The notes under the pieces were generated by a model that made no database searches, had not been told where the DNA came from, and saw only the letters and a list, made by a program, of their open reading frames with translations. A program made the translations under genes and the position numbers. Of a stretch of DNA of 64,000 nucleotides, positions 34,140 through 34,787 are shown piece after piece; within the stretch, counting starts at the first letter, position 1; every line of letters starts with the position of its first letter. Source of the stretch: Thermotoga sp. Mc24 (GTDB lineage: Bacteria > Thermotogota > Thermotogae > Thermotogales > Thermotogaceae); assembly GCF_000784835.1 (NCBI RefSeq), contig NZ_JSFH01000007.1, positions 62,001 through 126,000 of the forward strand, in the 5' to 3' direction.

Positions 34140-34787
34140 TCATCCCCCGATTCCCAATTTTCTTTTCACGAACCTTCTGACCCTGAAAAGGGGATATTCA
34201 GTCTCAGGAGGATCGAGCAGTTCTTCCGGGACAGCGGTGAAAAGAACCTTTATCCCTGTTTTCCTGGAAACCTCTGAAACTATCCGCTCTCCTTCGAGAA
34301 CAACTTCTGCTGTGGTCATGTCTCCGAGATTGGAATTGTTTATCAGGAAATCGAACTTCATCCTGGAAAGAGCGGATATTTTCTCCAAGTTTTCGATAAT
34401 GTCTTCCGGGCGTTCACAGAACGGTCTGAAGACATTTAAGACAAAATACGTCTGTGTGTCTTTTCTATTCAAAAGATGTCTTAGAACTCCTATTACTTTC
34501 GCTCCCTCTTCTCCTCCTGTGTCGATGACGGCTTCTTCACTGGACAGCCAGTCTGTGCTTTTTGGTATGATCGGCAAGTCACTGTACCTGAGGTTGTCTT
34601 CCACTGTCACAACGTGGATTCCAAGTACTTCTAATTCTTCCTTCAGGTCTCTCAATCTGAAATAGGGTGTTACCACGTCCAAATCGACCAATGATACGTC
34701 CTTTCCTGAACTCTTCAGTTTTAAAGCCAGGTTGATCGATATTTCTGTTTTTCCGCTACCGTAAGATCCCATCAAGATACGAATCAT
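34140..34787 (-). CDS. P-loop ATPase of the MinD/CobQ type, unknown role
   Basis: 215 residues. Walker [11 protein letters not shown] (6-15), a switch-like [22 protein letters not shown] (Walker B/switch), and [23 protein letters not shown], where the Asn pair suits a G4-like base contact. Fold of the SIMIBI class. It starts 32 nt inside buk2 behind GGAGAG, and ends five bases before the ferredoxin subunit, so it is made together with them. A role in maturing or assembling the iron-sulfur/oxidoreductase complex is a guess from position. Confidence 0.85.

Follow-up and report, generated by a model that had tools for sequence, protein, structure and literature searches.

We analysed a window of 64,000 nucleotides from Thermotoga sp. 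Mc24 (assembly GCF_000784835.1, contig NZ_JSFH01000007.1, positions 62,001 to 126,000), in which a gene for a predicted P-loop ATPase stands directly before the genes of a VOR-type 2-oxoacid:ferredoxin oxidoreductase (KOR). Sequence comparison across genomes suggests that the product of this gene is very probably an accessory ATPase dedicated to one clade of VOR-type KorDABC enzymes. On the minus strand, the gene run reads buk1, ptb, buk2, ATPase gene, korD, korA, korB, korC and tRNA-Asp, with the following features:

36769..37842, minus strand: buk1, butyrate-kinase-type acyl kinase, which opens the gene run
35888..36772, minus strand: ptb, phosphate-butyryltransferase-type acyltransferase, above the Pfam PTA_PTB cut-off and below those of NCBIfam
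34756..35883, minus strand: buk2, butyrate-kinase-type acyl kinase, presumed start GTG at 35883
34140..34787, minus strand: predicted SIMIBI-class P-loop ATPase, 215 amino acids, in the KOR operon
ATPase motifs by residue: Walker A GSYGSGKT, 7-14; ten-residue stretch, 35-44; Walker B DTGG, 89-92; N118 with R121-P122; NNSN, 150-153
33902..34135, minus strand: korD, 2x[4Fe-4S] ferredoxin-like delta subunit, 77 amino acids
32828..33889, minus strand: korA (vorB), alpha subunit, 576.1 bits for NF005507 (NCBIfam) against a cut-off of 399, presumed start ATG at 33889
32094..32837, minus strand: korB, thiamine pyrophosphate (TPP)-binding beta subunit, presumed start ATG at 32837, overlapping korA by 10 nucleotides
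31532..32092, minus strand: korC, gamma subunit, carrying the clade marker motif WLPSYGPEMRGG
31416..31493: tRNA-Asp, after korC in the run

The ATPase reading frame runs on the minus strand from an ATG at 34787 to a stop that ends at 34140. It shares 32 nucleotides with buk2, which ends at 34756, and four bases separate its stop from korD, which begins at 34135; this confirms the coordinates of a preliminary description of the window, in which the gene started 32 nucleotides inside buk2 and ended just before the ferredoxin subunit. The ATG is preceded by GGAGAG, and a Shine-Dalgarno-like stretch of korD lies inside the last ATPase codons. The neighbouring enzyme is a VOR-type KOR, with KorA exceeding the NF005507 cut-off and with POR, TPP_enzyme_C and Fer4 domains present.

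Family, fold and conserved residues

Judging from its sequence and a structural model, the window protein belongs to the SIMIBI class of P-loop NTPases; its Walker A, Mg-binding aspartate and Walker B are intact. CbiA (CobQ/CobB/MinD/ParA) is the sole Pfam family above its cut-off (29.9 bits against 25.4) and was matched by 103 of the 112 family members at E ≤ 0.01, the P-loop proteins of loci L002-L007 having been excluded from the family set as other proteins. Among NCBIfam models, 18 match the window protein at E ≤ 10 and none exceeds its cut-off; for other family members, the NCBIfam results are E-values only. Searches of PDB sequences gave no clear relative: the single sequence reached a best E-value of 0.015, and the profile one of 3e-4 in a match over the Walker A region. 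Residues G10, G12, K13, D35, D37, D89, G91, G92, G95, N118 and R121 are invariant in all 110 aligned members, and R44 is kept in 105 of them. An AlphaFold2 model built from 110 sequences reached a mean pLDDT of 91.7 and a pTM of 0.89. In a VIA-align fold search with this model, signal recognition particle (SRP) GTPases came top (Z 15.4, root-mean-square deviation 3.0 over 171 residues), and other matches were Cfd1 (Z 13.9), Mrp/Nbp35-like proteins (13.7) and a chain of a HypAB complex (13.2); CooC is absent from the fold matches listed, and such a search cannot separate SIMIBI subfamilies.

The preliminary description had called the protein a MinD/CobQ-type ATPase. Its P-loop and the CbiA assignment hold, but the MinD type does not: the signature lysine at the second Walker A position (residue 8), which MinD and ParA carry in their GKGGxGKT motif, occurs in 0 of 110 aligned members. 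Because this lysine is missing and the locus is metabolic, a MinD-like or ParA-like role was rejected, despite the shared CbiA domain and fold class. SRP GTPases have a conventional Walker A without a second-position lysine. The family resembles them, FtsY and FlhF in this respect, and they head its fold search with Z values of up to 15.4, but sequence identity is 14–22% among the matches listed, and an N domain and the NKxD aspartate are lacking. As no such aspartate follows N151, ATP is more likely to be the substrate than GTP. COG1149 is a MinD superfamily ATPase with an inserted ferredoxin domain; the window protein has no Fer4 family among its ten Pfam matches and thus no inserted 4Fe-4S ferredoxin domain. 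SIMIBI dimers place a lysine or arginine into the active site of the partner, as stated in the accessible part of PMC9599734, and R121 or R44 could be such a partner-inserted arginine.

A KOR-specific protein that itself carries metal or Fe-S clusters, in the way of Mrp/NUBPL, would fit the weak profile matches of the family (PF10609 in 89/112 members, MrpORP in 77/112) and the Cfd1 and Mrp-like structures among the fold matches (Z 13.7–13.9). However, the likeness to the Mrp/ApbC/NUBPL and Cfd1-Nbp35 carriers lies in the fold and in this weak similarity. The window protein stays below the curated cut-offs (23.7 bits against 27.1 for PF10609, NUBPL ParA), the deviant Walker lysine is absent, and no cysteine is conserved, with the best cysteine column reaching 15% among the 110 aligned members. 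We consider this kind of carrier quite unlikely.

Gene neighbourhood of relatives

A scan of 84,980 species genomes yielded at least 589 confirmed relatives, and the best 80 loci were analysed. In 71 of these 80, the same strand carries a KOR gene no more than 1 kb downstream, and in one (L072) the ATPase gene is divergent from korDABC. The remaining eight hold no KOR on the available DNA: in four of them (L056, L060, L095, L115) the contig ends less than 1 kb downstream, and in four (L055, L058, L085, L096) it continues for 1.7–6.9 kb. When the genomes of the latter four were searched, G114, G115 and G117 proved to hold a full VorB elsewhere, and G116 gave a fragment match only. All 30 Thermotogota loci examined for this (L001 and L008-L036, the locus of the window among them) have a kinase gene upstream and a KOR gene at most 1 kb downstream.

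Among 158 ATPase matches, some of which come from overlapping copies of one genome, 141 open a run of KOR genes, 4 lie 1.5–17 kb upstream of such a run, 1 is divergent and 12 have no KOR on the available DNA; a KOR gene upstream on the same strand was seen in 0/158. Similarly, 100 genomes of Clostridia carry both genes, within 1.2 kb on one strand in 83 cases, farther apart on one contig in 5 and on different contigs in 12, with a median ATPase-KOR gap of 319.5 nucleotides over the 88 linked cases. That orthologues mostly lie away from oxidoreductase genes, the outcome by which the preliminary description would have been refuted, is contradicted by the linkage in the best 80 loci, in Clostridia and in Thermotogota. 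No open reading frame fusing the ATPase to a KOR subunit was found among the loci examined, and a scan of viral contigs with the single protein, by which close relatives only are detectable, gave no relatives.

Co-occurrence across genomes

Co-occurrence with korDABC, for which the preliminary description had proposed a survey, was scored in 547 genomes of four groups, with VorB (the VOR-type KorA) counted as present at E ≤ 1e-90. This threshold gave 97, 103, 96 and 59 VorB genomes in Thermotogota, Clostridia, Desulfobacterota and Acidobacteriota, and the cut-off of the family itself gave 96, 102, 95 and 55. In Thermotogota (n=103), 95 genomes have both genes, 2 VorB only, 0 the ATPase only and 6 neither. 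The Clostridia (n=147) comprise 100 genomes with both, 1 with the ATPase only (G241), 43 with neither and 3 with VorB only, namely G151, in which VorB is cut by the contig end, G177 and G252. Both genes are present in 5 of 148 Desulfobacterota (91 VorB only, 52 neither) and in 10 of 149 Acidobacteriota (49 VorB only, 90 neither). Overall, VorB is found in 210 of 211 ATPase genomes and unlinked copies mostly keep a KOR elsewhere; the ATPase is absent from 145 of 355 VorB genomes. Two genomes were scored individually: G098 as ATPase-negative, with only a 43-residue Walker match, and G052 as VorB-positive (E 2.8e-94) despite a KorA split into two frames. In this last genome (locus L121), the two reading frames of KorA stand beside an intact ATPase gene, reflecting either real decay or an assembly error. 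VorB is also present in the genomes of Bacteroides ihuae and Methanosarcina acetivorans, which were included as controls for VorB.

In tests that ignore relatedness, the association had Fisher p values of 2e-8 in Thermotogota, 2e-32 in Clostridia and 6e-5 in Acidobacteriota, and was not significant in Desulfobacterota alone (p 0.16). For Clostridia, phi is 0.94 between ATPase and VorB versus 0.53 for the related control enzyme IOR (present in 104/147), so that the association of ATPase and KOR goes beyond what a common lifestyle by itself would account for. We give hardly any credence to the view that the gene is a chance neighbour or operon passenger with no KOR function. Clean losses, described below, do occur as this view would have it, but it is contradicted by the co-occurrence of unlinked copies, by the IOR comparison and by purifying selection on the ATPase gene, for which the ratio of nonsynonymous to synonymous substitution rates (Ka/Ks) is 0.164 against the G091 ortholog.

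The oxidoreductase as the partner

To the best 80 loci of the scan, two plasmid-collection records were added, giving 82 loci. Sixty-two of these 82 are KOR-linked with at least 3 kb of upstream sequence; here, ptb/buk is present in 18, an AMP-forming acyl-CoA ligase in 21, both in 0 and neither in 23. Being absent from 44/62 of these loci, ptb/buk was rejected as the partner. Among 59 loci with at least 4.5 kb downstream, a branched-chain aminotransferase is near 20, of which 15 have the ligase and 0 have ptb/buk. The order of the KOR genes varies as well: in the Acidobacteriota loci L210-L214 it is ATPase, KorB, KorC, KorA, and the four KorB sequences inspected (L210, L211, L213, L214) have a KorD-like ferredoxin fused at the N-terminus. 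Since these KorD-KorB fusions keep the ATPase, a factor that would dock onto KorD only seems improbable and was rejected. The ATPase is common to loci with ptb/buk, with the ligase and with permuted gene order, and therefore its partner is the oxidoreductase. This pairing spans Thermotogota, Clostridia, Acidobacteriota and a few Desulfobacterota, independently of ptb/buk and of KOR gene order. From the earlier proposal, which tied the ATPase to its oxidoreductase operon, the link to KOR is thus retained, but buk/ptb is not the partner and the ATPase is not a strict subunit.

Desulfofundulus (L219) has a further ATPase gene, divergent in sequence, ahead of an additional and likewise divergent KOR with the gene order A, B, C, D, and genome G224 (L187) holds another second ATPase-KOR pair. 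On the evidence of these sequences, each ATPase seems to be paired with a single KOR. Another reading is an independent enzyme, such as a BioD-like ligase or a small kinase, whose product would serve the same pathway. CobQ/CobB are synthetases and belong to the Pfam CbiA family, which would suit such an activity. We nevertheless regard it as highly improbable, as the ATPase tracks KOR through different pathway contexts and is absent from 143/148 Desulfobacterota, 91 of which have a related KOR.

Beside these pairings, L070 (861-3143) and similar loci of Clostridia encode, upstream of ATPase-korDABC, a helix-turn-helix and a cupin domain fused to an AMP-forming acyl-CoA ligase. Its closest NCBIfam model is MbcS, below the cut-off, and it is possibly a self-regulating enzyme.

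Losses and ATPase-free oxidoreductases

Two genomes of the genus of the window, G092 and G094, which are sisters in the KorA tree, cleanly lack the ATPase gene between buk2 and korD, and a loose search elsewhere in both gave only short Walker-region matches. An obligatory or core KOR subunit was rejected, because KOR is intact without the ATPase in G092, G094, G177 and G252, and the ATPase is absent from 91/96 Desulfobacterota genomes with VorB. The KorA tree, which was midpoint-rooted and has several low deep supports (0.22–0.88), places 22 ATPase-free KORs, all from Desulfobacterota, in one group beside most of the ATPase-linked ones. ATPase-free L119/L120, L184 and L185 (with L178 and L179) are nested in the ATPase-linked part, and ATPase-linked L057 and L107 group with the 22 ATPase-free KORs.

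In a residue comparison that excluded L187 and three paralog rows, the KorC motif WLPSYGPEMRGG (W, S, P) divides ATPase-linked from ATPase-free KORs. As a mark of ATPase dependence it was rejected, and it is instead a clade marker, because the ATPase-linked L187 and L219 lack it and losses within the clade retain it. As a separate observation, L190 (G255) is a second ptb-buk-korDABC copy without the ATPase, in which KorA is interrupted by a stop; the ATPase-adjacent KorA of that genome has none.

Proposed role of the ATPase

The ATPase is tied to one enzyme, has an intact site that presumably hydrolyses ATP, lacks conserved cysteines, is encoded ahead of KOR and can be lost; such traits best suit a protein that assists in maturation or assembly. 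By analogy, we favour a maturation or assembly factor for KOR, with about even confidence. In this scheme, the ATPase would bind nascent KOR via KorB and/or KorD and would cycle, in the SIMIBI manner, between a dimer holding ATP and forms with ADP or no nucleotide. The nucleotide cycle would hold or open the client during insertion of the [4Fe-4S] clusters and TPP and during subunit assembly, after which the ATPase would depart. It would thus act as a CooC-like conformational chaperone, being neither a metal carrier nor a catalytic subunit. Of the suggestions in the preliminary description (cluster insertion, cofactor delivery or regulation), the common element, an extra ATPase serving the oxidoreductase, is upheld, and the choice among them is a matter of weighing, with maturation favoured.

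CooC appears to be the closest parallel in logic, being likewise an ATPase of the SIMIBI class whose gene shares an operon with its Fe-S client. According to the accessible text of PMC6006190, it is present in some carbon monoxide dehydrogenase operons and not in others, and an ATP-driven conformational change of the client is proposed rather than metal carriage; CooC and HypB are compared in PMC9164220, as far as that text is available. Two differences stand out: CooC has two strictly conserved metal-binding cysteines (PMC6006190), which the KOR ATPase lacks, and its client is a Ni enzyme, whereas that of the window ATPase would be a TPP/[4Fe-4S] KOR. By its sequence, the KOR ATPase may represent a client-specific SIMIBI accessory NTPase. 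To our knowledge, no such NTPase is known for the KOR client class.

The preliminary description also held that such an ATPase is not part of known VOR/KOR enzymes. This agrees with the available text of a 2026 paper on a VOR-like KOR, the HpdDEFG enzyme of Clostridium scatologenes, which gives four subunits and no ATPase (PMC13285125). With HpdJ and HpdK, HpdDEFG forms the same enzyme trio as in the window, and the main text of that paper is without the words "ATPase" or "P-loop" (PMC13285125). In the open-access literature, to the extent that its texts were available, we recognised no description of this ATPase. HpdDEFG was produced in E. coli without an ATPase, and in the accessible account the pull-down recovered less than stoichiometric amounts of its KorB-like subunit (PMC13285125), which could reflect a missing maturation factor. 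The authors describe PFOR homologues as challenging to reconstitute and assay (PMC13285125, available part).

Several observations weigh against a dedicated maturation factor. Once its Fe-S clusters had been reconstituted chemically, HpdDEFG showed activity in the absence of an ATPase (PMC13285125, available part). The KOR genes of the G092/G094 pair are under purifying selection without the ATPase (Ka/Ks 0.05–0.10), which is also missing from 91/96 Desulfobacterota and 49/59 Acidobacteriota genomes with a VOR-type KorA; maturation can therefore proceed without it. The lack of a conserved cysteine counts here as well, as does G241, the lone ATPase genome of 211 without VorB, whose ATPase copy lies at a contig end. 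Moreover, the ATPase diverges faster than KorA (42–54% versus 64–82% identity to the window in L010-L036), and its KOR binding, ATP hydrolysis and effect on KOR are predictions.

The faster divergence also fits a nucleotide-dependent regulator, which would bind mature KOR or KorD so that the ATP/ADP ratio tunes 2-oxoacid oxidation against ferredoxin supply. Constant linkage to KOR and non-obligatory presence are equally consistent with this, and the accessible part of PMC9599734 presents SIMIBI proteins as NTPases that dimerise and have regulatory functions. Against it, the ATPase is kept in loci of opposite presumed energetics, ATP-forming with ptb/buk and ATP-spending with ligase and aminotransferase. 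Less forcefully, the ATPase gene, where linked on the same strand, precedes the KOR genes, a position often taken by genes for maturation factors. A regulator of the mature enzyme is possible, if doubtful, and carries about half the weight that we give to maturation.

The two loci types also argue against an electron pump with a fixed direction. An ATP-driven electron activator of the NifH or HgdC kind, driving low-potential electron transfer into or out of KorD, would be in keeping with the adjoining gene for a [4Fe-4S] ferredoxin subunit and with the ligase and aminotransferase contexts, which suggest reductive carboxylation in some Clostridia. But as cysteine does not exceed 15% at any position of the 110-member alignment, the protein should lack a cluster of its own of the NifH/HgdC type, and it also occurs in ptb/buk contexts, where electron flow should be downhill; we judge this activator very unlikely. 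An ATP-powered gate on mature KOR, in which ATP binding or hydrolysis is coupled to electron transfer through KorD, we consider unlikely. If it were true, ferredoxin reduction or reductive carboxylation would answer to the energy charge of the cell. We know of no ATP-electron coupling of this kind in the 2-oxoacid:ferredoxin oxidoreductase superfamily.

Enzymes of the PFOR/KOR superfamily have a central place in the anaerobic metabolism of carbon and amino acids, and their active form is hard to produce. A widespread and conserved partner missing from heterologous expression could partly explain the poor production and could serve as a practical tool. The pairing also raises the question why one KOR clade carries the ATPase and a related clade does not, for which the clean natural losses within Thermotoga are ready controls.

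Further features of the operon

The trio of KOR, Ptb and Buk is known from oxidative Stickland pathways in Clostridia, according to the available text of PMC13285125. Given this match, the window genes likely convert branched-chain 2-oxoacids to acids, yielding ATP and reduced ferredoxin. Both window kinases exceed the cut-off of the butyrate kinase NCBIfam model, and the two genes flank a single ptb (34756..37842). The two types are about 46–48% identical across species, so their acyl range may differ.

The stretch 33902..34787 shows a Ks of 0.07 for the ATPase gene and of 0.00 for korD against L124 (G093), versus 0.25–0.45 for the flanking genes; judging from these values, the ATPase-korD stretch is probably a recombined patch between two species. 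Finally, an inverted repeat (ATGGAA-CA-TTCCAT, 37884..37897, minus strand) lies about 40 nucleotides before the buk1 start and may be a site at which the operon is regulated.
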